From Oscillospiraceae bacterium (GTDB lineage Bacteria > Bacillota > Clostridia > Oscillospirales > Ruminococcaceae), in contig JAEEIA010000042.1 of NCBI GenBank assembly GCA_016281125.1, positions 1 to 42,334 of the forward strand: a stretch of 42,334 bases of DNA. The letters are read 5' to 3'. This document shows, one piece after another, positions 6,601 to 37,778 of the stretch. Positions within the stretch are counted from its first letter, which is position 1; the number at the start of each line of letters is the position of its first letter. The position numbers were made by a program, and so were the translations under genes. Below the pieces are notes generated by a model, which saw nothing but the letters and a program-made list of their open reading frames with translations, was not told the origin of the DNA and ran no database searches.

Positions 6601-6970
6601 CGCAGTCAGACGGGAAACGCGCGTCACGCTCGGAAATACCGTGCTGCCCGTCGGGAAATGCGAGGCGGTTTGCAGCACGCCGGTCGTCCGGAAAACCTGC
6701 ATCGGCGGGGAGGCGCACACGGCGCTGATGGAGGAAATCCCCTGCACCGTCACGCTGACCGGAACGCTGTTGCGCAGATCGCTCTGCGTGATTATCCCGG
6801 CACTGCACGAGGCACTGACAGCGCATACCGCATTCGCGTTCACGCTGGACGGCGTAGACTATTCACAGATGACGGTGACGGAGCTGCATGTCACCTATCA
6901 GGGAGAGGCACAGACGGCGGACTACGCACTGACAATGCTCGGGAGGATGCAGTATGCAGATCCGGTGTGA
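6590..6970 (+). CDS. Small beta-rich tail protein, possibly tube-like
   Basis: This 126-residue protein looks rich in beta strands (CTVTLTGTLLRR, FAFTLDGVDYSQMTVTELHV). A tail-tube or tube-initiator role is possible from its position just before the hub-like gene, but no motif proves it. ATG at 6590 has GAGAGG seven bases upstream; ATG at 6584 is also possible. It overlaps the preceding gene by 11 bp and the next by 17 bp, so the module is translated as a unit. Confidence 0.45.
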   Translation: MPIDAVRRETRVTLGNTVLPVGKCEAVCSTPVVRKTCIGGEAHTALMEEIPCTVTLTGTLLRRSLCVIIPALHEALTAHTAFAFTLDGVDYSQMTVTELHVTYQGEAQTADYALTMLGRMQYADPV

Positions 6971-7892
6971 GTGCATCGCCGCGGACGGCAGCATCACCGT
7001 GCTGTATGATGTCCTGCACTTTTCCCTGCTCCGCGACCGCTATCTCCCCTGCGCATCGCTGGCAATCCGGCTGCTGACGGCATCACAGCAGCCGGTTCCG
7101 GTGGCAGTCAGGCTCTGTCTGGACGGGCTTCTCGTCCATGAGGGCTGTGTCCGGAAATGTACGTGTATGCTGGAAAAGAAGCAGCATATCATGCAGATTT
7201 CGTCGCAGGGCTATTCCGTACTGCTGACGCAGAATCAGCTTGTGCCGGGGCTTTATACGCAGGTGACGCTTGCGGGGCTCATGGAAACCTACGCGCTGCC
7301 GCATATCACCTATCAGGATGTGCCGGGCATCCGGTACGTCTACGTTAAGGAGAACGCGAACATGTGGGATACCATTGTCGCGTATAATTACAAGCTGTGC
7401 CGCGGGTATCCGTATATCCGCGTGCCGAATCTGCTGTGCATGATGCCGCAGACCGGTACGGAGGCCGTCGTGCTGCCCGCAGACAGGCTGCTCCGCAGGG
7501 GAAACTGCGGCGAAACCGGCGGGATCATCAGCCGGATTGACATGGCAAACGCCGTCGGGGAATACGGCAGCTATTCCATGGATAACCCGGAGGCTGCCGC
7601 CCGCGGGATCGTGCGGGTGCGGCAGATTCTCTTCGACCGGCAGTATGCCTATGACCCCGAGGACGCGCTGCGGTTCCGGATTGCCGTCAGCAACCGCAGG
7701 CTGAACGGGCAGGTGCTCCGCTATATCGGCTACTGCGGCGAGGATCTGGAGGATCTTGCCGTATGCGGGGATTTCTCCGCGCGCGTCAGCAGAATTCTCA
7801 TCACCGGCGACAGCGCCGGCATCGTCACCGAGGATACATTCTATGCGGATCCGTTCTGCAACTGTGAGGCATCTCCGGCGGATTTGAATTGA
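6954..7892 (+). CDS. Baseplate-hub-like tail protein (XkdQ/gp27-like)
   Basis: This 312-residue protein has two beta-rich parts joined by a LysM-like segment at about 126-160 (ENANMWDTIVAYNYKLCRGY, then IRVPNLL). That layout resembles late-control/hub proteins that cap contractile or siphovirus-type tails. The ATG at 6954 has GGGAGG seven bases upstream, inside the end of the previous gene. It is the last gene of the locus and is followed by a strong terminator. With no sheath or tape-measure gene present, a hub-like protein here is surprising. Confidence 0.5.
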   Translation: MQIRCECIAADGSITVLYDVLHFSLLRDRYLPCASLAIRLLTASQQPVPVAVRLCLDGLLVHEGCVRKCTCMLEKKQHIMQISSQGYSVLLTQNQLVPGLYTQVTLAGLMETYALPHITYQDVPGIRYVYVKENANMWDTIVAYNYKLCRGYPYIRVPNLLCMMPQTGTEAVVLPADRLLRRGNCGETGGIISRIDMANAVGEYGSYSMDNPEAAARGIVRVRQILFDRQYAYDPEDALRFRIAVSNRRLNGQVLRYIGYCGEDLEDLAVCGDFSARVSRILITGDSAGIVTEDTFYADPFCNCEASPADLN

Positions 7893-7988: not shown

Positions 7989-10601
7989 TTATCCTTTTTT
8001 CCTTGAGAGCAGTTCCTCCCATGTCAGAACCTTGCCTGCGACCGTGTTGTTGACATAGTAAATCAGGATGTTCTGCGCGTCGTCTACCGACAGCTCGCCG
8101 TCCTCGTTGACGTCCGCATTCTTCGTCTGCGCGGCGTTCAGGCCGGTCGGGTTGCCCGCAATCCGGTTCGCATACGCACGGAGCGCAAGCTGCGCATCGT
8201 CCACGCTGACCGCACCGTCCAGATTCACGTCGCCCTTGAGCGGCTTCTGCTCCGGTGCAGGCGATGCAGTCACCCCGCCGCTGACCGTCGCAAACGCAAC
8301 ATCATCCAAATCGACGTTGAACGTCGAGCTCTGGTTGACCGTGACGCTGACCGGCAGCGTGCCCTCTGCGAGCACTTCAAATTTCAGCACGGCGACCGTG
8401 CCGTTTCCGGTGTTGTTCTCTGTGGAGAGGTCGTCCCAGTTCATCATGAACGGGATTGCGGACAGATCTCCGCCCGGCGTGAATGCCGAGGAACCGAGAA
8501 TTTTGCCGTCCGTGACCTCCAGCAGCTTCAGCTGTGCGGGATCATACGTTACGTTCAGGCTCAGCGCGGCAATGCCTGGATTATTCTCCAGCCGGACAGG
8601 TACCTCAACGGTGCCGCCCTTTTCCGCACTGGCCGTACCGACGATCACGGCTGCGCCGGTCGGAGCCGGTGCCGTCGTTGTCATCACAGGCACGGTCGTC
8701 GTAACGGGCTGCGCGGTCGTGGTGACCGGCTTAGCTGTTGTGGTGACCGGCTTGGCTGTAGTCGTGGCCGCTTTGGTCGTAGTCGTCACTGCTTTGGTCG
8801 TTGTGGCGACCGGTTTGGTTGTTGTGGTGACCGGTTTGGCTGTTGTGGTGACCAGCTTGGCCGTAGTCGTGGCCGCTTTGGTCGTAGTCGTGACCGGTTT
8901 TGTGGTTGTCGTCACCGCTTTGGCCGTTGTGGTAAGCGGCTGGGTGGTCGTAGTCGCAGGCTGCACCATGACCATGCCGTAAAGCACATCAAACGGAACC
9001 TCCTCCAGATTCACATTGAAGGTCGATTTCTGGTTGAGGCTGAGGTCGATCGGGATATTCCCCTCCGCATCCTCCGGGACGCGCACCTGAAGATATGCCA
9101 GAATGCCGTTTGCGGTCATGTTGCTCCGTGAAACGCTGTCCCACATCACTGTATACGGAACCGCTTTCAGATCACCGCCGGCCGTGAAATCCGCACCGGC
9201 GAAAACCCCGCCGTCCTCCACGCCGAGCAGCTCCAGCTTCGTGCTGTCATAGCTGAAACTGAGGCTCAGTGCCGTAATGCCCGGATTATTCAGCAGGAAC
9301 ACCGGAATCCTGACCGTTTCACCCGGATTTGCCCGAACTATCTGCGCATAGATCTGCGCCGAAGGATACGTGACGGTTGTTGTGACCGGCTTTGTGGATG
9401 TAACCGGCTTGGTTGTTGTCACAGGCTTTGTCGATGTGACCGGTTTGGTCGTTGTGGTAACCGGTTTCGTCGTTGTGATAACCGGTTTGGCCGTGGTCAC
9501 AATCGGGGCATTCGGATCGGTCACGAACTGCCCGTTCTTGTAGTACAGCTTCACATTCACGCCGCTGACGGTTTCCGGTTCTCCGACATAGGATGTATAC
9601 TGATACTTCGAAACCTGCGCGGGAATCCCGTTCACGGTCGCGGTGACATCCGGGAAGTCGTATGATTCCCGGAAGACGTATCCCGCATCGGCCAGCAGGG
9701 CGATCTGGACGCTGTACACCTTCCCCTGCTGGTAATACTGTCCGTTATCCATGACCTCGCTGTCGGTTTCATTCCACCACGTTACGCCCTGAACGGTCAT
9801 CTTCCAGTGATTTCCGTCCCGCGTGATCAGGCCGTTCGTATCGTGTGCGTGATACGGCCCGAGGGAACGGAACGTATACGAGGGATGCTGACCGATTTCC
9901 GGCAGCGCAAGGCTGTCCAGTGCGATTTCCCTGATCAGCGTATCCGCCGACGCTGCGGCCGTCGTGACTGTGGTTGTCGCAGTAACTGCGGCCGTGGTCG
10001 CAGACGGTGCTGCGGTGATACTCGCTTCAACCTGATCATCCAGGAACTGACCGTTCCGCCAGTGCAGCTCAATGCCGACGGTATCGTTCAGGTCTTCCTT
10101 GAACTGACGGGCATAGTCCATATTCACCTGATTCACGACAACCGGGATGCCGTTCATGGTCGCGGTCATCGAAGCTGCATTTTCCGGAAAGCTGTATCCG
10201 TCATCCGCTGTCACCCAGATCACAACAGCATAGGTGATCCAGTTTTCAAATACGCCTGTCACGCTCTCCACGTTCTGATATCCGCCGACCCAGTTGATAC
10301 CCTGTACCATCAGGTACGGATCATCCGGCGGTGTCATATCAATCCCGGCGGCATGGTAATGTCCGTGCATTTCACAAGTATACACGGGCTTTTCACCGAC
10401 AGCAGGCAGCGGAATGCCGTCTACCTCCAGATGCGTGATCACATTCTCCCCCTGCTGCGGCGCGGCCGAAACCGCCGTTTCGCCGGGGGCTGCTTCACAG
10501 GAGCCGACCGCAATCTGGCCGTGCGGTCCCGCATAGGCGCTCAGCCCGAGCCCCTGCACCGCAAGCAGCCCTGCCGTCAGACAGGATAATATTTTTTTCA
10601 T
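7989..10601 (-). CDS. Scaffoldin: two cohesins, C-terminal dockerin, duplicated N-terminal domain
   Basis: This 870-residue secreted protein would hold dockerin-bearing enzymes and itself dock to a larger scaffold. Order: signal peptide (1-25), two copies of an unrecognised domain (about 54-188 and 225-360, each with a YH.A histidine motif, an L.VQG..W block and a W/Y-rich end), Thr/Pro linker, cohesin 1 (about 412-545), long Thr-rich linker, cohesin 2 (about 648-775), and a dockerin (about 790-870) with two DVN.DG calcium loops. GGAGG sits 7 bases before the ATG at 10601; an adjacent ATG at 10604 is possible. The cohesin and dockerin calls are strong; the binding partners are unknown. Confidence 0.9.
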   Translation of the reverse strand: MKKILSCLTAGLLAVQGLGLSAYAGPHGQIAVGSCEAAPGETAVSAAPQQGENVITHLEVDGIPLPAVGEKPVYTCEMHGHYHAAGIDMTPPDDPYLMVQGINWVGGYQNVESVTGVFENWITYAVVIWVTADDGYSFPENAASMTATMNGIPVVVNQVNMDYARQFKEDLNDTVGIELHWRNGQFLDDQVEASITAAPSATTAAVTATTTVTTAAASADTLIREIALDSLALPEIGQHPSYTFRSLGPYHAHDTNGLITRDGNHWKMTVQGVTWWNETDSEVMDNGQYYQQGKVYSVQIALLADAGYVFRESYDFPDVTATVNGIPAQVSKYQYTSYVGEPETVSGVNVKLYYKNGQFVTDPNAPIVTTAKPVITTTKPVTTTTKPVTSTKPVTTTKPVTSTKPVTTTVTYPSAQIYAQIVRANPGETVRIPVFLLNNPGITALSLSFSYDSTKLELLGVEDGGVFAGADFTAGGDLKAVPYTVMWDSVSRSNMTANGILAYLQVRVPEDAEGNIPIDLSLNQKSTFNVNLEEVPFDVLYGMVMVQPATTTTQPLTTTAKAVTTTTKPVTTTTKAATTTAKLVTTTAKPVTTTTKPVATTTKAVTTTTKAATTTAKPVTTTAKPVTTTAQPVTTTVPVMTTTAPAPTGAAVIVGTASAEKGGTVEVPVRLENNPGIAALSLNVTYDPAQLKLLEVTDGKILGSSAFTPGGDLSAIPFMMNWDDLSTENNTGNGTVAVLKFEVLAEGTLPVSVTVNQSSTFNVDLDDVAFATVSGGVTASPAPEQKPLKGDVNLDGAVSVDDAQLALRAYANRIAGNPTGLNAAQTKNADVNEDGELSVDDAQNILIYYVNNTVAGKVLTWEELLSRKKG
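8669..8962 (-). repeat. 21-bp tandem repeats coding a Thr-rich linker
   Basis: About 13 tandem 21-bp units encode seven-residue repeats of the form TTTAKPV/TTTTKAA between the two cohesins. A shorter linker of the same type is encoded near 9363-9505. Such threonine-rich linkers are often glycosylated in cellulosomal proteins. The repeat count probably varies between strains by slippage (inference). Confidence 0.85.
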
Positions 10602-10647
10602 CATATGTCCTCCGTTTTTTACCGCTGTTTCATACAGCTGATGGCAT

Positions 10648-12723
10648 TCAGTCCAGCGTGACACCCCAGCCGCCGACCAGATACCGGCGCAGGACGGTCA
10701 CGTCCTTCAGGTCAATGCTTCCGTCTTTGTTGACATCAGAGTTGGCTTCATTGATCACGGCATCCCAGCCGCCGACCAGATACCGGCGCAGAACGGTCAC
10801 GTCCTTCAGATCAATGCTGCCGTCATCGTTGACGTCGCCGAGCCTGGTCGCCTGAACGGGGGCAGTCGTTGCGGTTGTCACAGTCGTCACGGTTGTCTGA
10901 ACGGCTGCCGTTGTCTGAACAGGCTCCGTTGTCACGGTCGTGGAGGACGGCGGGGCTTCCTTGCTGAATACAAAGGAATTGACCTGCGAGCACTCACCGC
11001 CGGACGCGCTTCGGAACACCAGATACAGATCATGCACGCCGGTCACGGTCGGAATCTGAACCGTGTAGTCGATATATTTACCGTAGTTGCCGGAAACACT
11101 CAGCATGCACTCGCCGATCGGCGGATTTGTCAGCGCATCCAGATACAGCTCCACGCTGCTGTCCGTGTAGGCGCTGATGCCGTTCAGCGTGAAATACGAA
11201 GCGCCGTCCCCGAAATCCAGATTCTGATACAGCGCCCAGTCGCCTTCCCGCGTCCAGCCGAGAACATGGTAGTCGTCCTCTTTCAGCGTACCCTTTTTGT
11301 CATTCAGATCCAGGCCGCTGATCGGCTCAAACACGGAGCGCACGGGCGGCTTCTGAGAAACCGTCAGCGTGCAGAATGCAACCTCCACCGCGCCGTCATA
11401 TTCGCCGTCATACATGCGGATATCATAGACGCCCTCCACGCCCGGCGCGCCCAGCGTCGTGACGCCATCCTGAATATCCTTGACGCGGCACCAGCTGCCG
11501 TTGTGATCGTCGCCGTCCTTTTCGGTATGCGCGATCTCTGTCGGCACGAATGCGATCCACGCGTCATCCGGATATTCGCCGGTGACGTTCACGCGAACCG
11601 TCACGCTCTTGCCGGGCTTCACCCATGCTTCATCCGTGCTGATTTTGCCGCGCATCGTGCTGTATATGACGCGGAACGGCTGACTGGCGATTTCCTTTGC
11701 GGTAAGCTCGTCCTCGCCGTCATACACGCGGATGTCGTAATTGCCGACCTGCTCCGGTGCAGTCAGCGTCAGTTCGCCGTCCTGAATATCCTTCAGTCTT
11801 GCCCAGTCACCGTTGTGATCGTCGCCGTCCTTTTCGGTATGGGCAACCTCGGACGGTATCACCGCGATCCACGCATCTTTTGAGATTTCACCGGTCATGC
11901 TGATTTTGATCGGGATTTTCGCTTTGCGGAACACAGCATCCGGAACCTCCAGATCCACATAGAGCCCCTTCGGCTCCTCGTCTGCGGTCACATAAACCGG
12001 AACGCGTGCAACCTCATAGGCATGGTTGTTGTCACCGTCAAAAATACGGATATCGTAATTGCCCTCCGTATTCGGCGCCTTGATCACATAGCCGCCGTCC
12101 GAAATATCCTTCGCCCAGCTCCAGTCGCCGTTGACGGCGTCGCTTTCGTCCTCAGAATGTCCGGCATCCGACGGAATAAATCCGATCCACGCATCGTCCG
12201 GGATCTCGCCGGAAAGCGACGCGGAAATCTTCACCTCGGAACCCGGCGCGACATAGCGGTTTTTCACGCTGAGCTGCGCACCCATACAGCCGCGGTACGT
12301 TGTCCGGATCGGAATACAGGCCACTTCCTTTGCTACACCGTCATCCGCGTCAAAGCAGCGGATCTCATATTCGCCGATCGTATTGGGCGTGTTCAGTGTG
12401 ACTGCACCGTCCTGCACATTTTTCAGCCATTCCCAGGATACGTCGTAATTGTCGCTGTCGCGCTCGGTATGCGAAACGCCGGCCGGCACAATGCCGATCC
12501 ACGCCTTGCCCGGGATCTCTCCCTCAATCTGCACCGAAACCGTCATCTCTGACGCACGCGGAACCACGGATTCCGCCGCAATCTGAACCGTCAGCGGCTG
12601 CGCTGCGGCATCGGCGCGGAGGCCGGTTCCTGCGGAAAATGCATCGGGCAGAACCCGGATGCAGACCGCTGCCAGCGCCGCAGACAGGAGTGCTGCGGTC
12701 AGGCGTACTGTTGTATTTTTCAT
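10648..12723 (-). CDS. Secreted four-repeat protein with CBM6-like module and dockerin
   Basis: This 691-residue protein has a signal peptide (1 to about 38), four tandem repeats of about 100 residues (about 42-460), a CBM6-like beta-sandwich (about 470-590, with GWTREGDWALYQNLDFGDGA), a Thr-rich linker and a C-terminal dockerin (about 630-691). Each repeat contains DAWI..IP, H.E.D.D, W..., DG and YDIR.(Y/F)DG, an acidic layout that could bind calcium. The two dockerin halves share a run of almost identical codons. No catalytic domain is visible, so a binding or structural cellulosome part is likely. The ATG at 12723 follows AGGAGGT. Confidence 0.85.
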   Translation of the reverse strand: MKNTTVRLTAALLSAALAAVCIRVLPDAFSAGTGLRADAAAQPLTVQIAAESVVPRASEMTVSVQIEGEIPGKAWIGIVPAGVSHTERDSDNYDVSWEWLKNVQDGAVTLNTPNTIGEYEIRCFDADDGVAKEVACIPIRTTYRGCMGAQLSVKNRYVAPGSEVKISASLSGEIPDDAWIGFIPSDAGHSEDESDAVNGDWSWAKDISDGGYVIKAPNTEGNYDIRIFDGDNNHAYEVARVPVYVTADEEPKGLYVDLEVPDAVFRKAKIPIKISMTGEISKDAWIAVIPSEVAHTEKDGDDHNGDWARLKDIQDGELTLTAPEQVGNYDIRVYDGEDELTAKEIASQPFRVIYSTMRGKISTDEAWVKPGKSVTVRVNVTGEYPDDAWIAFVPTEIAHTEKDGDDHNGSWCRVKDIQDGVTTLGAPGVEGVYDIRMYDGEYDGAVEVAFCTLTVSQKPPVRSVFEPISGLDLNDKKGTLKEDDYHVLGWTREGDWALYQNLDFGDGASYFTLNGISAYTDSSVELYLDALTNPPIGECMLSVSGNYGKYIDYTVQIPTVTGVHDLYLVFRSASGGECSQVNSFVFSKEAPPSSTTVTTEPVQTTAAVQTTVTTVTTATTAPVQATRLGDVNDDGSIDLKDVTVLRRYLVGGWDAVINEANSDVNKDGSIDLKDVTVLRRYLVGGWGVTLD

Positions 12724-12783
12724 GAAATACCTCCTCTTGATACAGTTCGGAAAGCCGGATTTTCTTTTCCGGTTTACACTGCT

Positions 12784-12812
12784 ATCATAGCATACATACC
12801 GCAAAATCACAA
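12784..12812 (-). promoter_or_regulatory. Sigma-70-type promoter for the CBM6/dockerin gene
   Basis: On the minus strand TTGTGA (12812-12807) and TATGAT (12789-12784) are separated by 17 bases, about 60 bp upstream of the start codon. A small CCGGA/TCCGG hairpin lies in the leader. Confidence 0.65.
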
Positions 12813-12874
12813 GAAGCAGCAATTATTTTTTACAGAAAATTAACATTGCAGGCTGCGCGGTTCCGGCCGCGGGA

Positions 12875-13719: not shown

Positions 13720-15117
13720 TCAGTGCATCAGGTCGCGCTTCATCAGCGCAAGATCCGTCGAATCCAGCGAATTATCCTTGTTCAGGTCGCCGCATTTCCA
13801 GTTCGCAATCGTGCTGTTCTCCGAGCCGACCCAGTTCTGCATCAGCTTCAGATCATCCGTGTTGAACTTGCCGTCGCCGTTGACGTCACCCTTCACGCCG
13901 GAGCCGGAACCGGATGCCAGCTCTGTGCAGGCCTTCGTATCAAAATTGTACATCCAGATGCTGCCGTCCGTGCGCAGGAAATACAGGCAGACCTTGCCCG
14001 AAACGGTATCCGCATGAAGCACCGTTTCAACATTCGTCACCGTGAACTGCTTGCCGGAGCAGGTACCGCTCAGCTGACGGTTCCGCGTGATGACGCAGCT
14101 GACCGTCTTGCCGGAGCCCGCGCTCAGCTCTTTTCTCAAAATCACAGACGGATCCTCTGCCTTGACGTTGGATACCACCTCGCCCGTGCGGTTGTTGGTC
14201 AGCGTATACCGGAACAGCTTGCAGCCGTTCTTCTCACCGATGCACTCCAGCGATTTGACATAATTCGTAATCCAGTTCAGCTTGATGTCCGGTTCCGTAT
14301 CCAGCCGGTACAGAACATCGAGATTATCCACGAACAGGTCGCCCGCAACGATGCGCGGCGCAACAATGCCGACACTGGAACGCGTCGCACGGATGGCGCC
14401 GGTATCGCTGTAATTGACATGGAACGCGACAACGCCATCCCCCATCGAATAATACAGCTGCGGAATCTCCTGATCGGGCAGGAACCGGCTGAAGCTGTCG
14501 GTCACAAATGTATTGATAAACATATCAGTGTAGGGGATAAACGCATACAGCTCGTGATTATCCGTGCTGCCGCAGCCGTATTCCAGCGACGTGATGCCGC
14601 ACTGCTTCTGCTCCTTGCCGTTGGCCAGGAGCGTGCCGTCCTTTTTCAGCACAAGATCGCCGTGCGTATAGACGCCCTTCTCGTTCTGCGCATACACATG
14701 CGTAAAGTCCGCGACATCCTTCAGCGCTGCGGTTGCCTTTCCCTTGCCGACGACATACATCGTGCCGTTCAGCAGCACGGCACTGCCGACGGATCCGCCG
14801 TTATAATATGTACAGGTGTCATAGACGGCGGTGTCCAGCCATGTGTTGTGCAGCTCCGGGTTATAGACAGAAACCGCGGTCGTCGCAGCAGCCGGAAACA
14901 GCGAAACAAAGTCGCAGTCAGGCGCCTCCTCAATGTCTTCCACATCTTCCGTGAGCAGCTCTGCTTCGGATGTATCGTCGCAGAGTGTGTCCGAAAGCAC
15001 GGGATCGGTCACGGTGCCGGCATCCGGTTCGGTGTCGGCAGAGGCAGCGCGGGACAGGTTCATTCCGCCGATGAGCACGGCGGCGGCGCAGCATACGGAA
15101 AAGCGGCGGTACTTCAT
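13720..15117 (-). CDS. Secreted dockerin protein of unknown function
   Basis: This 465-residue protein has a signal peptide (1 to about 28), an acidic low-complexity stretch (about 29-70), a central region of about 300 residues and a C-terminal dockerin with two calcium loops (GDVNGDGKFNTDDL and GDLNKDNSLDSTDL). The central part has repeated strands such as GTMYVVGKGKATAAL and GVYTHGDLVLKKDGTLLANG, which suggests a beta-propeller-like or all-beta fold, but I do not recognise a family. AAGGGG precedes the ATG at 15117, and a clear promoter lies 150 bp upstream. The dockerin implies cellulosome attachment; an enzymatic role is open. Confidence 0.8.
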   Translation of the reverse strand: MKYRRFSVCCAAAVLIGGMNLSRAASADTEPDAGTVTDPVLSDTLCDDTSEAELLTEDVEDIEEAPDCDFVSLFPAAATTAVSVYNPELHNTWLDTAVYDTCTYYNGGSVGSAVLLNGTMYVVGKGKATAALKDVADFTHVYAQNEKGVYTHGDLVLKKDGTLLANGKEQKQCGITSLEYGCGSTDNHELYAFIPYTDMFINTFVTDSFSRFLPDQEIPQLYYSMGDGVVAFHVNYSDTGAIRATRSSVGIVAPRIVAGDLFVDNLDVLYRLDTEPDIKLNWITNYVKSLECIGEKNGCKLFRYTLTNNRTGEVVSNVKAEDPSVILRKELSAGSGKTVSCVITRNRQLSGTCSGKQFTVTNVETVLHADTVSGKVCLYFLRTDGSIWMYNFDTKACTELASGSGSGVKGDVNGDGKFNTDDLKLMQNWVGSENSTIANWKCGDLNKDNSLDSTDLALMKRDLMH

Positions 15118-15271
15118 GGATAATAATCCCCTTTCAAGCGAATGTTTACGGCAGGAACACCGGATTCCCGGGAAGGAAAAATCAACAATTTCCAGCATGA
15201 TCCGTTCCGGTGTATAATCTGCACATAACATTCCGATTTGTATAGAAATGTTTTAGAACCCTTCCAAATAT

Positions 15272-19546: not shown

Positions 19547-20482
19547 TTAACAACCGGTCGTTTCGGGATAAATGATATTCCGGAACGCATTGGTCGTATA
19601 CGGCGTGGTGCAGCCGTTGTAATTGACCGTGAGGCCGGAAAGAATCGGATAATCCTCGAATCGCTTGAATTCATGGAAACCGACTGCTTCCAGTTCACAA
19701 TATTCATCAAATTCCTCGCGTGTCATGATTTTGTCGAACATGCCTTCAAAGACAGGGCGATTCGGATTCAGGGCACAGCCGCTGAAATCAACGTAGACCA
19801 GCGGCCAGTCATATTCTTCATCCCATGTCAGTACTGGTACGCTGAATTCGGTGATTCTGTCGGTGGAGCTGACACGCATGCCTGCAACATAGAGGTCATC
19901 AAAGTACAGTCTGCCGGAATACTCGCCGGTCGTGTAGTTAACTGTGAAGTCATCAAGGTACATGTTGCTTGAGAACTCGTTTCTCAGATAGTAGTCATTC
20001 AGATATCTGAGTCCGAATTCCTTGAGGTTTGAACCGCTGTCTTCCTGGAATTCCAGCTTCAGGCCGAACTTTGTGCCGTCTTTTTTGGCTTTGGCGCTGA
20101 TTTTGTCGATCTTCTTGCGTGCATTCAAAGCCTGCTGTGTGTTTTGCAGCCTGGTTCTGGAGATGACGTCTGTATCCAGTAAGGCGCACATCCTCGTATT
20201 GAGAGAGTAAGTACCGCCGATATCGGGCCTGGCCTCGTCACCGGCACCCTTGACTGTGACCTTGTTTCTGGAATTCAGGAAACTTGCCTTGATCAGCGGC
20301 ATGGAATTCTGCTGTGCAGCGGTGCTCCAGCAGTACCCGCCGTAGGTGAGGCTGTAATTGTATGTCAGATTGGTGTAATTGCTGCTTGTCACGTTGTACG
20401 CGGATGCGGGGATTGCGGCAACGGACAAAAGGGTGACTGCTGCGGATGCGAGCGCTGTCAGTCTGCGGAATGTGTGCTTCAT
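19547..20482 (-). CDS. Secreted protein of unknown function, paralog 1
   Basis: This 311-residue protein has a clear signal peptide (1-28, cleavage after ASA), then a region with YCWSTAAQQNSMP, DVISRTRLQNTQQAL, GLKLEFQED, YSGRLYFDDLYVAGMRVS and WPLVYVDFSG blocks. All of these recur in the neighbouring paralog. It ends in a lone cysteine (PETTGC). I recognise no family, metal site or catalytic triad. AAAAAGGAGG precedes the ATG. No promoter is seen directly upstream, so it is probably read through from the 20618-21520 gene. Confidence 0.75.
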   Translation of the reverse strand: MKHTFRRLTALASAAVTLLSVAAIPASAYNVTSSNYTNLTYNYSLTYGGYCWSTAAQQNSMPLIKASFLNSRNKVTVKGAGDEARPDIGGTYSLNTRMCALLDTDVISRTRLQNTQQALNARKKIDKISAKAKKDGTKFGLKLEFQEDSGSNLKEFGLRYLNDYYLRNEFSSNMYLDDFTVNYTTGEYSGRLYFDDLYVAGMRVSSTDRITEFSVPVLTWDEEYDWPLVYVDFSGCALNPNRPVFEGMFDKIMTREEFDEYCELEAVGFHEFKRFEDYPILSGLTVNYNGCTTPYTTNAFRNIIYPETTGC

Positions 20483-20617: not shown

Positions 20618-21520
20618 TCAGCAGCCTACCGGCTCCGGCAGGTAATAACCGAAGCTGAGCTGATCGGTCTGATAACGGCCGGTTCCGTCGTAGTTATAAG
20701 TGACGGTGAGCCCGGTCAGAAGGTTGTAATACGAGTTTTCGTATGCCTGGAGCCTGCCGCCGTTCGGCCGATAGAATCCAAAATAAAAATCGAATTGATT
20801 CTGTGTCATGATCCTGTCATAGACGCCTTCAAAAACCGGGCAGTTCGGGTCCGGCAGACGGCCGCTGAAATCAACGTATACGGTCGGCCATCCGTCCTCC
20901 CAGGTCAGCACCGGCTCACTGAACGTGGTATAGCCGTCATTGCAGCTGACGCGCATGCCTGCAATATAAAGGTCATCAAAGTACAGTCTGCCGGTGTATG
21001 TCGCAGTGCGGGTGTTATAATCGAACGAATCTTCATCCAGATACATATATTGACTGAGATAGAAGTTCAGATCGGAACTGTGCATCACTCTGAGGCCGAA
21101 TTCATTGAGGTTGCGCTGCTCCTGAAATTCCAGCTTCAAACCGTAAAGCCGGTCGTATACGCCTCTGACTGAAATTTTGTCGATTGCCTGTCGTGCCCGT
21201 AAAGCGGTTTGCGTATTTTGCAGCCTGCTTCTGGAGATGATGCTTGTGTCCAGTGTTCCGAGCATCTGCGTCGGGCCGAAGTCACACTTGACTGTGACCT
21301 TGCTTCTGGGATTCAGGAAACTTGACGTAAACACCGGCATGCCCTGCTGCTGTTCAGCAGTGCTCCAGCAGTAGCTGGCACCGGCGCCGTGATAGTAGTT
21401 TTTCAGCTGTTTGTAATTGCTGCTTGTCACCTCATACGCGGATGCGGGGATGCTGACAACGGATAAAAGCGTAATTGCTGCGGATGCGAGTGCTGTCAGT
21501 TTGCGGAACGTATGCTTCAT
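20618..21520 (-). CDS. Secreted protein of unknown function, paralog 2
   Basis: This 300-residue paralog of the 19547-20482 protein shares the signal peptide (MKHTFRKLTALASAA...), YCWSTAEQQQGMP, IISRSRLQNTQTAL, GLKLEFQEQ, YTGRLYFDDLYIAGMRVS and WPTVYVDFSG blocks, and a C-terminal PEPVGC. The shared final cysteine suggests a functional residue. AAAGGAGG precedes the ATG. A promoter (21617-21645) and a repeat array lie upstream, divergent from a LacI/LytTR-type regulator, so regulation by that protein is likely. The function is unknown. Confidence 0.75.
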   Translation of the reverse strand: MKHTFRKLTALASAAITLLSVVSIPASAYEVTSSNYKQLKNYYHGAGASYCWSTAEQQQGMPVFTSSFLNPRSKVTVKCDFGPTQMLGTLDTSIISRSRLQNTQTALRARQAIDKISVRGVYDRLYGLKLEFQEQRNLNEFGLRVMHSSDLNFYLSQYMYLDEDSFDYNTRTATYTGRLYFDDLYIAGMRVSCNDGYTTFSEPVLTWEDGWPTVYVDFSGRLPDPNCPVFEGVYDRIMTQNQFDFYFGFYRPNGGRLQAYENSYYNLLTGLTVTYNYDGTGRYQTDQLSFGYYLPEPVGC

Positions 21521-21616: not shown

Positions 21617-21645
21617 ATCATATCACATCCGCGCGGAAAATGCAA
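21617..21645 (-). promoter_or_regulatory. Promoter of the secreted-paralog operon
   Basis: On the minus strand TTGCAT (21645-21640) and TATGAT (21622-21617) are 17 bases apart, next to the repeat array. The leader would be about 90 nt. Confidence 0.7.
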
Positions 21646-21653
21646 CGATTTAC

Positions 21654-21814
21654 GACGAAATGCACAATATTGCGATGAAATGCCGGATACGGCGACGAAA
21701 TGCCGTTTTTCGGTACTGAGTTGCCAGTCTGCGACGAAATGCCACCCTGGCATTTCGTCCTCCAAAAACGGGATTTCGTCGCGGACGAAATGCCGTCATC
21801 CGCGACGGGTTGAC
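21654..21814. promoter_or_regulatory. Operator array: 11-bp GACGAAATGCC repeats with about 20-bp period
   Basis: Direct copies start at 21654, 21674, 21694, 21733 and 21784 (consensus GACGAAATGCC). A weak copy lies near 21715, and another at 21804 runs into the -35 box of the regulator gene. Inverted copies lie at 21749-21759 and 21770-21780. Spacing is 20, 20, 39 (about two turns twice), then 21 between the inverted copies and 20 at the end. The array sits between two divergent promoters. LytTR proteins are known to bind short direct repeats about two helical turns apart, so these are probably binding sites for the adjacent regulator. Confidence 0.75.
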
Positions 21815-21838
21815 AAGTCCGTGCGTACATGTTATAAT
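21810..21838 (+). promoter_or_regulatory. Consensus sigma-70 promoter of the LacI/LytTR regulator gene
   Basis: TTGACA and TATAAT are separated by exactly 17 bases. The last degenerate repeat of the array overlaps the -35 box, which suggests autorepression. Confidence 0.9.
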
Positions 21839-21879: not shown

Positions 21880-23598
21880 ATGCACGGACAGATCGCAGTC
21901 ATATTTTCTGATTTCAAAAACGATTATAATGACGGGTACATCTTAGGCATCCAGAAGCAGGCCAATCTGAGTGGCCTGCGGACGTTCACATTTTCCATGC
22001 CGCAAACCAGCGAACTTTATACCAATGACGAAGAATGGGTGTTCAGCCTGATCGACTTTGACCGCTACGACGGCGTCATTTTTGTGGAACACAGCTTTTA
22101 TGCGCACAAGAATCTGATTCTGCCGATCGAGGAAGCGCTTCGCAGCCGATGCAGCTGCCCGGTTGTCGTCATCGGAAACTCCAACACACTGCCGCATGTG
22201 CTCCGGCTGGAAAACCGGGAGCGCTTTGAAAAGGTTGCGGAGCATCTGCTCGATGTTCACGGCTGCAAAAAGGTCTACTGCCTGGGCGGTGACCGCAACA
22301 TCTGCGACGAACGCATTGACGGCTTTATCCGGGTGATGCAGCGTCACGGGCTGCCCTGCGGGGAGCAGAATGTTCTCTACGGCGGCTACTGGATTCCGTG
22401 TGCCGAGGCGCTTGCAAAGGATATTGCATACGGCGCCGTCGAAAAACCGGACGCAGTCATCTGCGTCAATGACGAGATTGCCTATGCGCTGATCAAGAAG
22501 CTGTTTTTCTACGGCCTGCGCGTGCCGGAGGATCTGCTGGTTGCGGGCTTTGACAATGCACCGTATGCGTCCAACGGCGCCGTGACCATCACGACCTATG
22601 CCGCCGATACCGAGCACTGCGGACGCCGTGCGGCGGCGCTGCTGGTTTCGCTGATCAACGGCACGGAGCCCGAAACGATTCCGCAGAAGCCGCAGGGGCT
22701 GATTACCGGCGCGAGCTGCGGCTGCGGCACAAAGCCGCTTCTGAACATCCGCGCCAAGCTGGACGAGCTCCAGAAAACCGAAACCGCCAACATGGAGTTC
22801 CGCAATTCCCGGTTTGAGGAGAAGCTCTATAAGGTGCAGTCGCAGGAGGAGCTTTCGCAGTTCATCAAGAATCACAAGTATCTGATCCGCGACCAGATCA
22901 GCGTCAGCGTCAACCTGATGGAGCGCGACGAGGACGAGGCGTGCTGCATCTATCTGAAGGATTATCTGATCAACGGCGAAAGCGTGAACTTCCGCGCCCG
23001 GAATATCTATCCGGATGTGTTCTCGTTCGGCGCAATCAAAAATGTGCATGTGATGCCGCTTGTCTTTGACAAGCAGGTTTACGGCTTCATGACAATCGGC
23101 TACGGTGAGGAGAATGTCTATTCGCTGCACGCCAAGCAGTTTGCAAACCGCGTGGCCATCGGTGTGGAGATTCTGCGCGTCCGGCAGAATGCGGCGGCGC
23201 TGCGGGCATCCCACGCCGCGGAGCAGCCTGCGGATCTGCTCTCGGCCAATCTGGATCTGAAACGCTCAGCCGCGGCGATTCTCGTTGTTCACAACGGCTC
23301 CATGACCAAGGTGCCGCTGGAAAATGTACTCTATTTTGAAGCGTATGAAAAAAAGGTGTTTGCCGCGCTCAAAAGCGGGAAATATGAGATCAAGCAGCGG
23401 ATCTGCGAGCTGGAGGACATGCTGGAGGGGCGGAACTTCATCCGCATTTCCAGATCTATTCTGGTCAATATGAAGCGGGTGGTCGGCTACCGCACCGGCA
23501 ATGACCGCACGCTGACGGCGGTGCTCGCTGACAAGCAGGAGCTGCGCGTTTCCAGAATGCACAGCGAGGATTTCAAAAAGCAGCTCGAGAAGCCGTGA
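21880..23598 (+). CDS. Transcription regulator: LacI-type sensor domain plus C-terminal LytTR domain
   Basis: This 572-residue cytoplasmic protein starts directly with a LacI/periplasmic-binding-protein-like sensor (about 1-285: IAVIFSDFKNDYNDGYILGI, DGVIFVEHS, DAVICVNDEIAYALIKKL, LLVAGFDNAPYAS). A GAF-like middle (about 300-440) and a LytTR DNA-binding domain (about 470-572: VLYFEAYEKKVFAAL and FIRISRSILVNMKRV) follow. The helix-turn-helix and hinge of normal LacI proteins are absent. There is no signal peptide or membrane segment, so the ligand is sensed inside the cell. The ATG at 21880 follows GGGGGGAG. It probably acts on the repeat array between itself and the secreted paralogs. Confidence 0.85.
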   Translation: MHGQIAVIFSDFKNDYNDGYILGIQKQANLSGLRTFTFSMPQTSELYTNDEEWVFSLIDFDRYDGVIFVEHSFYAHKNLILPIEEALRSRCSCPVVVIGNSNTLPHVLRLENRERFEKVAEHLLDVHGCKKVYCLGGDRNICDERIDGFIRVMQRHGLPCGEQNVLYGGYWIPCAEALAKDIAYGAVEKPDAVICVNDEIAYALIKKLFFYGLRVPEDLLVAGFDNAPYASNGAVTITTYAADTEHCGRRAAALLVSLINGTEPETIPQKPQGLITGASCGCGTKPLLNIRAKLDELQKTETANMEFRNSRFEEKLYKVQSQEELSQFIKNHKYLIRDQISVSVNLMERDEDEACCIYLKDYLINGESVNFRARNIYPDVFSFGAIKNVHVMPLVFDKQVYGFMTIGYGEENVYSLHAKQFANRVAIGVEILRVRQNAAALRASHAAEQPADLLSANLDLKRSAAAILVVHNGSMTKVPLENVLYFEAYEKKVFAALKSGKYEIKQRICELEDMLEGRNFIRISRSILVNMKRVVGYRTGNDRTLTAVLADKQELRVSRMHSEDFKKQLEKP

Positions 23599-26944: not shown

Positions 26945-26992
26945 AGTATCCATATCAACCTGAGTTTATTGGATTGGTATGGATGCTTTTTT
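26945..26992 (+). terminator. Terminator just upstream of the integrase gene
   Basis: A 14-base stem (26945-26958 with 26974-26987, two G-U type pairs) ends in six T residues. It would block read-through from the chromosome into the integrase. Confidence 0.75.
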
Positions 26993-27053
26993 GTCATTAT
27001 GCTATATAATATATATGTCCGCAGGACTACTATATATAATAAGGAGCATACAA

Positions 27054-28118
27054 ATGACGTTGAAAAAGCCTGAAAACAACCCTGATTTTGATGTTTTGGA
27101 ATTCATGCGGTCGCTCTCCCCTGTTCTCAACGAGAAATACGAGTGCGTGACCGTGGCTGACTGGACAGCTTGCTGGCTGCTGCACTATTGTAACGAACTC
27201 AAAGACTCCACGAAGTTAGAGTATCAAAAGACAATTCATCAGCATATCAACCGAGTTCTCGGCAATGTAATGTTAAATGAATTGTCACACGAGGATGTTC
27301 AGCTATTTATCAATAGCCTGAACATGGGGGTTGGGATCGAAAACAAGTTAAGTCCAAAGAGTATCAAAAATATACATGGCGTTCTGCATAGTTGTTTGAA
27401 AACCGCCGTTGACTTCGGATATATCAATGCAAATCCGGCTGACAAAATCCGACTTCCAAAGAAAGCAATCCCGGAAGTCAAGCACCTTGAACCGGAGATT
27501 ATGCATGATTTCTTTGCTGCTATTCAGAATCATCCAAAAAAATTTCTTTTTACGGTTTCCATTTTTACGGGAATGCGCGAAGGCGAAATTCTTGCTCTAA
27601 CATGGGACTGCATCCGGTTCGATATTGGAGAGATCTATCTGTATCGGCAGCTTTCCAATAAGAATGCCGAGAAAGAGTACCGGTTTACTTCTTTGAAAAA
27701 CGGGAAAACGAGAACCTTGCGTCCTGCCCCGTTTATTATAAAACTGTTAAAAGAACAATATGATGCTGCAAATCCTGATCTATCCGACTTCGTTTTCAAA
27801 AACGCAAAGGGTGAGCATTATACGCATTCAGCTCTGTATAATGCCTTTCAGCGCGTTATGAAACGCCTTCGCTATCAACAGCACCTTCGGTTTCATGATT
27901 TGAGACACACATACGCCGTCCTTTCGCTTCTTGCCGGTGACGATATTAAGACGCTGCAAATGAATCTCGGTCACTATTCCGCAGCATTCGCACTGGACGT
28001 TTACGGGCATAGAAATGATTTAATGATGAAACAATCGGCTGACAAAATGGAACGATTGATTCATAATCAATTTCCGGAACTGCTTGAACCAGACGATACC
28101 GAGTCTGCTTCAATGTAA
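27054..28118 (+). CDS. Tyrosine recombinase (integrase) of the element
   Basis: This 354-residue phage-type integrase has an N-terminal SAM-like core-binding domain (about 35-125) and a catalytic domain with R in TGMREGEILAL (about 190), K in TSLKNGKTRTL, H-x-x-R in FHDLRHTYAVL, H in LGHYSAAF and Y in DVYGH. It should cut and join at the tRNA-like site 190 bp upstream. The ATG at 27054 follows AAGGAG; the longer frame lacks a ribosome site. The AT-rich ACTATATATAATA just before the gene recurs at two other places in the element. Four genes follow closely, so integrase and partition genes may be co-expressed. Confidence 0.93.
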   Translation: MTLKKPENNPDFDVLEFMRSLSPVLNEKYECVTVADWTACWLLHYCNELKDSTKLEYQKTIHQHINRVLGNVMLNELSHEDVQLFINSLNMGVGIENKLSPKSIKNIHGVLHSCLKTAVDFGYINANPADKIRLPKKAIPEVKHLEPEIMHDFFAAIQNHPKKFLFTVSIFTGMREGEILALTWDCIRFDIGEIYLYRQLSNKNAEKEYRFTSLKNGKTRTLRPAPFIIKLLKEQYDAANPDLSDFVFKNAKGEHYTHSALYNAFQRVMKRLRYQQHLRFHDLRHTYAVLSLLAGDDIKTLQMNLGHYSAAFALDVYGHRNDLMMKQSADKMERLIHNQFPELLEPDDTESASM

Positions 28119-35346: not shown

Positions 35347-37602
35347 TTAGTTGTTGTCATACACAACCGGTGTCTGAATAAGGTCTTCATAAGAGTAATA
35401 GGTCACCATGACCGTCTCTGTATTGCGGCCAACCTCAAACCAAATGCAACCGTTATCGAAGTTGTACCCTACTTTTCCGCTGCGGTTGTAGCCCCACTGA
35501 TCGCCATAGGAGCGCTCATTGTTCTGGATCTTTGTTGCCTGTTCGACCTCGGCAAGAGACTTGGTGATGTAAGGAACACCGAACACATTTTGAGTTGTAT
35601 TCAACCCATATCCCGTGTCAAGATCGAGAGCCACGACATCAACCGGATCCTTATAAAACTGGCGGATTTTGTCTCCTTTGGTACGAGCACAGCAATAAGC
35701 AAAGTTAATGCTGATAACTTGCGGCTCCGGCTTTACATCTGTAGTCACTCTTCGAGTGTCACTGCCCTCAATCGGCGTTTTATCCCATTTGGAGGGTTCC
35801 GACCAAGATTCAGTGAAAGCGGTGATTACCTCTACAGAGCACGCCAGGCTCTCGCCGTTTACGTTAGCGGTTACTATAACCTTGCCGTCTTTCTGTGCGG
35901 TAACAAGTCCATTAGCCGAAACCGTTGCAATTGACGGATTTGAAGACTTCCACACAACATCTTCAGGGCTGATATAGGACGTCGAAAGTTGATAAGTCTT
36001 GCTCTCGCCTTGGGTATTCAGCTTGATCGAAGACTTGTTCATCGTAATGACGATGCTTTCATCAATCAGAATCTGCCTTTTCAGCAGTGTAAGATCAATT
36101 CCGTTCAATGCTCCGTCACCGTTGAAATCAGCAGCGTTCGGATCCGCGATTGTAACAGTACTATCTCCGAGCAAACATTTCGTGAGAAGATCAAGGTCGG
36201 TATAATTGACCTTATCATCTTCATTGAGATCTCCTCTCTGACTAACTCGAGTCCAGATAGCATATACCTTGATAGTCGTATCTTTGCTCAAGTCAGGACA
36301 CAAGTTCTTGGTGGTGAGGGATGTATCGTCTTGGTCAAATATGGTTGAAGACCCATCCTTTGAGAGACTCCATCCGACAAATGAGTAATGTTCGCGCTGG
36401 AGACCGAATGAGGATGCATTACGTAATCCGTTAACTGACCCTTTACCCAGTTCCCAGATGGTTGAGTATTGCTTTTTGCTGTCATTCTGGTAAATCAGGC
36501 TGTCGTTGTCAGCAACATAGTATGCGGAGTCTGTTGCTGTTCTGCCGCCGTTACTGTGGTATGTAATCGTCAGCTTGGGGGCAGGAGGAATAGGAGAAAT
36601 CAACCGGAACCGTTGAGAAAGGGTGTCGTTTCCCTCGCATACCTGTAAATTGTTACCTTTTTCTGCTTTTCCGTCTTGGACATCAAGAAAGAAACCGTTT
36701 CGTTTGGACTGAATCGAGTAACCAGTGTCTGTTTTCCTCACAGACCACTGCTGGGCACTCGACTGGTTCGATTCGTACATCCAAACATTCGTTCCAGAGC
36801 ATTGCTCACCGTTGTATACATCAAGGCACATTTCTCTGCCCTTCTCGGCACTCCGATACTGCGAGATCGTATAGAAGCCGTTGTTGTAAGTGAAGGCCCA
36901 TTGATCTTGTACATCGGGAAGTGTACCTGCGTCATAGGACCACAGAGCAACGTTCGCTGTCGAAGGAGCCGGAATATCAGATCCGGGGGCGGGGTCAACA
37001 AAGAGGGTGTCACCCAATGCCGAACCAATGCAATAGACACCGTCCGGAATTGTGCGGCCTGCTGCTTCAGATTCATTCATTTCGTGACCAATAGGTCTAT
37101 CCAGAGTCAATGATATGCCGCCATGAATACCCCATCCCCAGTATGTATAACCATGGTTTTCAACCGTACTAATCAGCATTTTCTGAATTTTGCTGCTGTA
37201 TGCATGGACTATATATCCATCTCCGACATACACACCAATATGACCGCTATGATGACCATTGCCGTCAATATAATCATATTTACAGCCTTCACTCGAAAAG
37301 AATACATCAGCTCCGATAGGAATATCTCTTGATGTAGATGTTAGATATTGTGTACCGTAGTTCCATGCACAACAAGCACTACTACGCGTCCCACCTAAAG
37401 CAGCAAAGCCATCGGCAACAAATGCCAGACACATATTGGAAGCATAGGATTCTCCGACTCTGTTGCTGAAATAATTAGCAATTTGCTCGGGCGTCAGTTC
37501 AACAGCAGCATGGGCAGTTTGTGTTTGAATTATATCAGGGCGATAAATCAAAATGCTGAATGCGAAAACTATCGCCGTGAATATGGAAATTATCTTTTTC
37601 AT
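35347..37602 (-). CDS. Secreted NlpC/CHAP-like cysteine peptidase with ricin-type lectin, dockerin and Big2 domains
   Basis: This 751-residue secreted protein has a signal peptide (1 to about 30) and a cysteine-hydrolase domain (about 35-165: Cys in SNMCLAFVADGF, His in GHIGVYVGDGYIVHAYS). A ricin-type beta-trefoil (about 185-345, with DQWAF, AQQWSV and SQRFRL repeats) and a Listeria-Bacteroides-type repeat (about 350-455) follow. Next come an internal dockerin (GDLNEDDKVNYTDLD and DFNGDGALNGIDLT), a Big2 Ig-like domain and an unrecognised C-terminal 150 residues. It may cleave peptidoglycan or proteins and bind sugars. AAAGGAG supports the ATG at 37602. It is convergent to SRAP and its AT-richer codons fit the element. 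Confidence 0.8.
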   Translation of the reverse strand: MKKIISIFTAIVFAFSILIYRPDIIQTQTAHAAVELTPEQIANYFSNRVGESYASNMCLAFVADGFAALGGTRSSACCAWNYGTQYLTSTSRDIPIGADVFFSSEGCKYDYIDGNGHHSGHIGVYVGDGYIVHAYSSKIQKMLISTVENHGYTYWGWGIHGGISLTLDRPIGHEMNESEAAGRTIPDGVYCIGSALGDTLFVDPAPGSDIPAPSTANVALWSYDAGTLPDVQDQWAFTYNNGFYTISQYRSAEKGREMCLDVYNGEQCSGTNVWMYESNQSSAQQWSVRKTDTGYSIQSKRNGFFLDVQDGKAEKGNNLQVCEGNDTLSQRFRLISPIPPAPKLTITYHSNGGRTATDSAYYVADNDSLIYQNDSKKQYSTIWELGKGSVNGLRNASSFGLQREHYSFVGWSLSKDGSSTIFDQDDTSLTTKNLCPDLSKDTTIKVYAIWTRVSQRGDLNEDDKVNYTDLDLLTKCLLGDSTVTIADPNAADFNGDGALNGIDLTLLKRQILIDESIVITMNKSSIKLNTQGESKTYQLSTSYISPEDVVWKSSNPSIATVSANGLVTAQKDGKVIVTANVNGESLACSVEVITAFTESWSEPSKWDKTPIEGSDTRRVTTDVKPEPQVISINFAYCCARTKGDKIRQFYKDPVDVVALDLDTGYGLNTTQNVFGVPYITKSLAEVEQATKIQNNERSYGDQWGYNRSGKVGYNFDNGCIWFEVGRNTETVMVTYYSYEDLIQTPVVYDNN

Positions 37603-37778
37603 AATACAATCTCCTTTTTCAGTGGTCAACTATAGGTGGTGGCAATCATAGAATCCGAGAAGGGGTTCGGGTACTATATAATTGCCTTCGGACTTATGTC
37701 ACTTAGGTGTTCTGTAATTAATCAATTGTCTGGCTTCTTGCTAGTCGTGGAATCGGCTTTTCTTTGATCGAATAGATT

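Follow-up and report, generated by a model that had tools for sequence, protein, structure and literature searches.

A putative multi-box LytTR operator between the divergent promoters of a regulator gene and a secreted-type protein gene in an Oscillospiraceae bacterium

What is a dense cluster of short repeats between two divergent genes for, and which protein would read it? The question is raised by positions 21654-21814 of a 42,334-bp stretch of DNA from an Oscillospiraceae bacterium, the whole of which is referred to here as the window. A first-pass annotation described this region as an operator array between divergent promoters, with seven clear copies (five direct and two inverted) and two weak copies of an 11-bp box, GACGAAATGCC, on a period of about 20 bp. 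Seven copies with at most one mismatch do lie within 141 bp of the region, five on the + strand (21654, 21674, 21694, 21733, and 21784) and two on the - strand (21749 and 21770), whereas no 11-mer exceeded two copies in 300 dinucleotide shuffles of it. Both weak copies are also present (21714-21725, TACTGAGTTGCC; 21804-21814, GACGGGTTGAC). The rest of the window holds a single further copy at one mismatch or fewer, at 32102. When two mismatches are allowed, 24 matches are found in the whole window against 17.5 expected, which is not unusual (9 of 100 shuffles reach 24). Because this count is not significant alone, clustering and genome-wide pairs were used instead; the unusual feature of the copies is their clustering, not their number in the window.

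The boxes, together with the divergent promoters that flank them, support the description of an operator-like array; yet the array is not uniform, and falls instead into two sets of boxes that face opposite ways, together with a head-to-head pair (Table 1). Five boxes form a ladder that faces left, toward a gene for a secreted-type protein, and other boxes face right, toward the regulator gene. The proposed period of about 20 bp is correct for the left-facing run (steps of 20, 20, 20, and 19 bp) but not for the two right-facing boxes, which are 21 bp apart. The copy at 21714, previously called weak, makes better sense as a canonical LytTR-type box (GCAACTCAG). Boxes of this form occur in 11 of 23 arrays, and the one here departs by a single letter from GCAACTTAG, a published LytTR box. 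The other weak copy does overlap the -35 element of the regulator gene, as the annotation had noted. Across 5 bp, the right-facing box at 21749-21759 stands tail-to-tail with box 5. The copy at 21784 was considered as a sixth step of the ladder, a reading that was rejected because this copy does not keep the register and belongs with the head-to-head pair. The 12-bp LytTR form is seen in box 4 and the 11-bp form in the other ladder boxes, with a period near 20 bp in both; the 12-bp form dominates in one relative (G012).

Table 1. Features of the array and of the genes that flank it, in window coordinates.
Feature	Positions	Strand	Description
Paralogue of secreted protein	19547..20482	-	311 aa; signal-peptide-like start (by eye); no Pfam match
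Secreted-type protein	20618..21520	-	300 aa; signal-peptide-like start (by eye); no Pfam match; predicted target
Core promoter, secreted gene	21617..21645	-	-35 TTGCAT 21640-21645; 17-bp spacer; -10 TATGAT 21617-21622
Box 1	21654..21664	-	Proximal box of left-facing ladder; TGCATTTCGTC on - strand; 8 bp from -35
Box 2	21674..21684	-	GGCATTTCATC on - strand
Box 3	21694..21704	-	GGCATTTCGTC on - strand
Box 4	21714..21725	-	12-bp form; GGCAACTCAGTA on - strand; includes GCAACTCAG
Box 5	21733..21743	-	Distal end of left-facing ladder
Right-facing box	21749..21759	+	GGCATTTCGTC on + strand; ends 50 bp before regulator -35
Right-facing box	21770..21780	+	GGGATTTCGTC; ends 29 bp before regulator -35; left half of head-to-head pair
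Right half of head-to-head pair	21784..21794	-	Pair is GGGATTTCGTC-gcg-GACGAAATGCC
Weak box	21804..21814	-	GACGGGTTGAC; over regulator -35
Core promoter, regulator gene	21810..21838	+	TTGACA 21810-21815; 17 bp; TATAAT 21833-21838
Regulator	21880..23598	+	572 aa; LacI-type periplasmic-binding sensor; weak GAF-like middle; C-terminal LytTR

The gene to the right of the array begins at an ATG behind a GGGGGGG run that resembles a ribosome site, and its product bears out the earlier assignment to the LytTR regulators. The LytTR domain (PF04397; 74.9 bits, cut-off 22.6) occupies residues 474-569 of 572, and the sensor (PF13377, Peripla_BP_3; 84.4 bits, cut-off 26.5) indicates a LacI-type periplasmic-binding fold. 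The region between them is weakly GAF-like (E 0.1, below cut-off), and the AlphaFold model of the protein is poor (pLDDT 48.7). No receiver domain is found in the regulator at E values up to 1, so it is not a two-component response regulator by domain content; nor is it a typical LacI repressor, since it has no N-terminal helix-turn-helix (HTH) match and its sensor domain begins at residue 5. An inhibitory membrane protein of the kind found in LytTR regulatory systems (LRS) is absent from its neighbors: the next gene encodes DNA polymerase I, and the divergent gene encodes a protein of the secreted type. In the same genome, three proteins (L124, L125, and L127) resemble the regulator in their LacI-type sensor and middle region (24-27% identity), but have an AraC HTH output, one also with GGDEF, instead of LytTR. 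To the left of the array, no GACGAAATGCC box was found upstream of the paralogue of the secreted protein in the window scan, and the paralogue is possibly on the same transcript as the predicted target.

The boxes can be compared with published LytTR repeats, which are 9-mers such as GCAACTTAG-11 bp-GCAACTTGA at SMU_1070c and GCATCTTAG-12 bp-GCATGTTAC at lmo0984. According to the available text of PMC6193735, the direct repeats are mostly 12 (11 or 13) bp apart and stop 4-11 bp (mostly 10 bp) short of the -35. The repeats described here have 11-12-bp boxes mostly 20 bp apart, within the LytTR period of about 19-22 bp, and likeness to LytTR boxes is seen both in box 4 of the window and in G012. 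In the window's clade the main box, GGCATTTCGTC, has 11 bp, one base fewer than the 12-bp form, and is less like the published LytTR boxes. In G012, whose regulator orthologue is the most diverged (60% identity), two left-facing GGCATCTTAGTC boxes 20 bp apart contain GCATCTTAG; a right-facing GGCAACTTAGTC is followed 20 bp on by GGCATCTTGTC, and the published 9-mer GCAACTTAG is contained here as well. Through these published 9-mers in G012, the link between the boxes and LytTR recognition does not depend on gene neighborhood. The annotation had made conservation of repeat position and spacing in related strains the test of its reading, and in the orthologues box position and spacing are kept as the letters drift; two of them, at 71-72% identity, retain steps of 20 bp although their box letters differ.

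The array is probably the operator, of unusual length, of the adjacent one-component LytTR protein acting as an autoregulated activator. From the arrangement of boxes, promoters, and domains, we infer that this regulator binds the array cooperatively, responds to a ligand, and activates both the secreted gene and its own. One LytTR domain would sit on each 11-12-bp box, with boxes every two helical turns and 8 bp between the last box and a -35 that is usually poor (TTGC..). The ligand-bound regulator, its LacI-type domain sensing a sugar or other small ligand, would recruit RNA polymerase to the secreted gene, and the right-facing boxes would do likewise for the regulator's own gene. The half-palindrome over the regulator TTGACA would probably limit regulator expression. 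Repeated at eight further genome sites, the same promoter-operator module would define a regulon of mostly secreted proteins.

A genome search for further box pairs, proposed in the first-pass annotation, used the pattern GACGAAATGCC-N9-GACGAAATGCC (at most 3 mismatches in 22 positions) with the reversed pattern as a control. The window's genome (G000) gives 17 pair matches and no control match, and the 17 pairs make up nine arrays on nine contigs (C11, C17, C19, C34, C50, C61, which is the window, C71, C72, and C76). Among 24 arrays, same-strand boxes (at most two mismatches) are spaced by 20 bp in 40 cases, by 19 bp in 3, by 21 bp in 4, and by 18 bp in 3. Up to 34 bp, a spacing of exactly 20 bp accounts for 40 same-strand pairs and all other spacings together for 18, and same-strand boxes 39 or 40 bp apart are found in 30 cases. 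L094, a near-copy of L091, is omitted from the spacing, palindrome, and box-form counts, and L039 additionally from the box-form counts; L042 (G012) is omitted from box, spacing, and palindrome counts because its boxes have the 12-bp form. The array set keeps close relatives (e.g., L038/L039 and L088/L090), so its fractions do not represent independent cases. Perhaps only the two proximal boxes of each ladder matter, the others being decaying by-products of slippage or of the spread of a promoter cassette; the distal boxes differ between arrays in how many there are and how good they are, and spacers such as GTATAC recur between arrays and hint at copying. Such an account is nonetheless unlikely, given that boxes beyond the second still hold the 20-bp register in orthologues with changed box letters and that a box of distinct sequence, the GCANCTYAG form, is kept as one copy each in the 11 arrays mentioned above.

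The boxes also stand in a fixed register to promoter elements. Read toward the target gene, the arrays consist of GGCATTTCGTC-type boxes at 20-bp steps, an 11-bp proximal box (often GGCATTCTGTC), 8 bp, TTGNNN, 17 bp, and a TATAAT-like element. The 8-bp gap between the last box and the TTGNNN -35 is found at 24 of 26 loci in this genome and its relatives, and 23 of the 24 loci that have it also have the 17-bp spacer. Box-1 places were set by hand from the 20-bp register, after which a script sought the best -35 at 4-18 bp; at L087 the script took another alignment, although inspection by eye shows a TTG at the 8-bp distance. The secreted side of L042 does not fit the 8-bp register. The -35 reads TTGC.. 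in 19 of 24 cases and TTGA.. in 5 of 24, with one perfect TTGACA, at L079, which for that reason does not look activator-dependent. A further array in G003, found with a triple-box pattern, has the order GCATTCTGTC, 8 bp, TTGCAT, 17 bp, and TATGAT before a secreted-type gene.

Boxes are present at the regulator's own promoter in all eight orthologues, the window's included, which is consistent with the predicted autoregulation. In the seven others, a right-facing box (0-4 mismatches) ends 9-12 bp before the regulator TTGACA; this nearest box has no mismatch in two of the seven and four in one, and further right-facing boxes upstream are 19-22 bp apart. The distance is unclear on the regulator side of the window, where boxes lie at 50 and 29 bp and no clear proximal box is seen; nearer than 29 bp there is only a four-mismatch match at 12 bp, which passes the threshold and is out of the 21-bp register. 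The motif GCGACG stands directly before the regulator -35 in seven of eight orthologues (window included), so that a half-palindrome overlaps this -35 and might perhaps cap regulator expression.

LacI-type sensors mostly serve repressors, and the regulator could be one: its ladder would coat the promoter region until a ligand released it, as CO releases CoxC. CoxC, a LytTR repressor with three repeats that overlap the -35 (available text of PMC11347149), offers a precedent, and the weak box over the regulator -35, the conserved GCGACG before that -35, and the perfect TTGACA of one target promoter would fit. Repression is nevertheless quite unlikely, as target boxes leave 8 bp free before the -35 (24 of 26 loci), a distance in the range published for LytTR activators (PMC6193735, as far as available), and the prevailing TTGC.. 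is the -35 expected for activated promoters.

A head-to-head pair with a 3-bp center (GTC-NNN-GAC) accompanies many arrays, in addition to the ladder that would serve activation. It is found in 13 of 24 arrays at no more than 5 mismatches in 22 positions, against 5 of 24 for the next gap, and in 40 rounds of shuffling the 3-bp gap had a mean of 0.03 and a largest value of 1. At 6 mismatches this preference narrows, the 3-bp gap being seen in 20 of 24 arrays and a 6-bp gap in 19 of 24. Two of the 13 (L038 and L039) carry the pair over the regulator -35 rather than as a distal element. At the same 5-in-22 threshold, 11 of 24 arrays have a tail-to-tail pair separated by 5 bp (next gap 5 of 24), the shuffles covering the head-to-head arrangement only. 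Both are present in the window, head-to-head at 21770-21794 and tail-to-tail at 21733-21759. Stand-alone head-to-head pairs, GGCATTTCGTC-cgc-GACGAANTGCC, lie more than 200 bp from the proximal box at L081 (7084-7108) and L092 (6110-6134), 32-40 bp beyond the 3' end of a lipoprotein-like gene.

The distribution of arrays among related genomes bears on the identity of the binder. Box pairs are found in 6 of 30 genus genomes (G000, G025, G020, G003, G024, and G006), with one reversed-control match each in G025, G003, G024, G022, and G016. Regulator orthologues of at least 60% identity are likewise found in 6 of 30: G000, G024 and G020 (85%), G025 (82%), G003 (72%), and G012 (60%); in the other genus genomes, the best among the matches listed cover the sensor or the sensor and middle region at 22-37% identity. 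Pairs and orthologue occur together in 5 of 30 genomes (Fisher 2.4e-4, kinship ignored), and shared descent could mimic this co-occurrence since the genomes with an orthologue are related to one another. At the promoter of its regulator gene, G012 carries a variant of the box pair. G006 has box pairs and no detected regulator orthologue; this bin is 81% complete with 5% contamination, and its 4-kb array contig is 97.8% identical to G024. Alignment against genome contigs gave nine loci, seven of them orthologues, from rumen or gut metagenome bins of Ruminococcus, Oscillospiraceae, or Clostridiales, and two weak partial matches. A triple-box pattern (at most 2 mismatches) occurs in 5 of 297 family genomes versus 15 of 297 for its reversed control (manual count); these are G000, G003, and three genomes of other genera with one match each at 2 mismatches, which look like chance. 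The number of arrays per genome ranges from nine (G000) through five (G024), four (G025), three (G020), and two (G003) to one each in G006, G061 (L102), G062 (L100), and G012, which suggests that the set grew outward from the regulator's own promoter.

The boxes could instead be read by one of the other five LytTR proteins or by an unrelated factor, the regulator gene being merely one target, and both the six LytTR domains in the genome and the array without a detected orthologue in G006 leave room for this. It is nonetheless improbable: only this regulator's LytTR site among the six has an adjoining box pair, and regulator orthologues track the pairs in 5 of 6 genomes, which LytTR domains of any kind, present in 27 of 30 genus genomes, do not. 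That the array is a non-regulatory repeat (origin iterons, a CRISPR-like array, or a satellite), as short direct repeats in tandem might suggest, is scarcely credible and was rejected, given nine dispersed arrays in a fixed register to -35 and -10 elements at genes of several unrelated families and no Rfam match above gathering scores in the window or at the C19 and C34 loci.

An activator acting through a long ladder has partial counterparts among known systems. Divergent promoters with LytTR repeats that serve both sides, including autoregulation, are found at staphylococcal agr P2-P3 with AgrA; unlike the regulator here, AgrA is a two-component response regulator and has two repeats per promoter. 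The earlier remark that LytTR proteins usually bind only two repeats is true of most known sites, although three-repeat operators are known (RcoM, CoxC). LytTR operators of four to five boxes would be unusually long, and ladders of three to five boxes set these arrays apart from operators built of a single pair. The HdrRM/BrsRM-type LRS of Streptococcus mutans and others share LytTR, spaced direct repeats, and autoregulation (predicted here), but differ in having two repeats and an inhibitory membrane protein in the same operon, as described in the available part of PMC6193735. RcoM and CoxC resemble the regulator in joining a sensor and a C-terminal LytTR domain in one protein and in using more than two direct repeats, but sense CO through other sensor domains and use three 8-bp repeats, all three of which CoxC needs for efficient binding; the available text of PMC11347149 mentions neither a palindrome nor a multi-promoter set, both of which are present in the arrays here. 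BldC of Streptomyces, bound head-to-tail as a multimer to direct repeats of varying number, offers an analogy for a possible ladder, but has a MerR-like winged helix rather than LytTR and no sensor domain (PMC5859096, as far as available). Within the literature covered, which is partial, no LytTR operator is described that combines four or five boxes with a second, palindromic element and with many target promoters, and there is no Ruminococcus, cellulosome, or many-repeat LytTR system except CoxC/RcoM. It is possible, if doubtful, that the arrays follow a grammar of their own, in which three to five domains bound cooperatively head-to-tail as a ladder, held in an 8-bp register to RNA polymerase, would be accompanied by a separate head-to-head pair read by the same protein. 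The module would then have spread from the regulator promoter to a secretome regulon, and the box would have lost one base with selection keeping the two-turn period.

The genes faced by the arrays are mostly of the secreted type. A gene with a signal-peptide-like start (by eye) is faced at 22 of 26 loci, L100 having a short frame only, and at 7 of 9 arrays in the window's genome (C19 and C76 being the exceptions); loci without a facing secreted-type gene are L079, L084, L041, and L042 (by eye). Pfam was run on ten target proteins and the window's, several of the other targets being BLAST-similar to these. In the window's genome, the C11 target is a papain-type peptidase with lectin-like and dockerin domains, the C17 target is a BspA-type leucine-rich repeat (LRR) protein with a transglutaminase core, and C72 has a dockerin, as does C71 below cut-off; relatives' targets include an M4 peptidase with CBM2, LRR_5, and dockerin. 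Four scanned targets (the window's, C34, C50, and L092) have no Pfam match. The genome has at least 150 dockerin matches (150 of 308 candidates scored), so the arrays mark a small subset of the cellulosome-type secretome, and the regulator would not be its main regulator. If the proposed activation holds, the dockerin-rich genome of a rumen or gut fiber degrader would have an identified regulator and operator and a regulon of nine sites for secreted, partly cellulosome-type proteins. The arrays would also offer a natural series (species with one to nine arrays, 11- and 12-bp boxes, two box geometries) in which to study the use of more than two sites by LytTR proteins and the building of a regulon through the spread of a promoter cassette.

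Two arrays of the window's genome lead to other sequences. At L079 (C19, 6490-6587) the full promoter grammar (8 bp, TTGACA, 17 bp, TATCAT) points to eight CRISPR-like repeats with a 66-bp period (6905-7469) that start with GTTTGAGAG, and no secreted-type gene was seen between the array and these repeats; the arrangement is possibly an assembly effect on a short, 8.8-kb contig, or real. At L084 (C76, 6482-6587) a good promoter has no signal-peptide-like gene within about 570 bp, and the next long frame encodes what we take to be a MoxR-like ATPase (NCBIfam matches all under cut-off). Dockerin-bearing proteins are encoded within the window at 7989-10664, 10648-12822, 13720-15231, and 35347-37629 (- strand), with no box cluster near these four. 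Downstream of the DNA polymerase I gene and an acetyltransferase gene, the window also contains a gene for a phage-type tyrosine integrase (26979-28118, + strand), a possible start of a mobile element.
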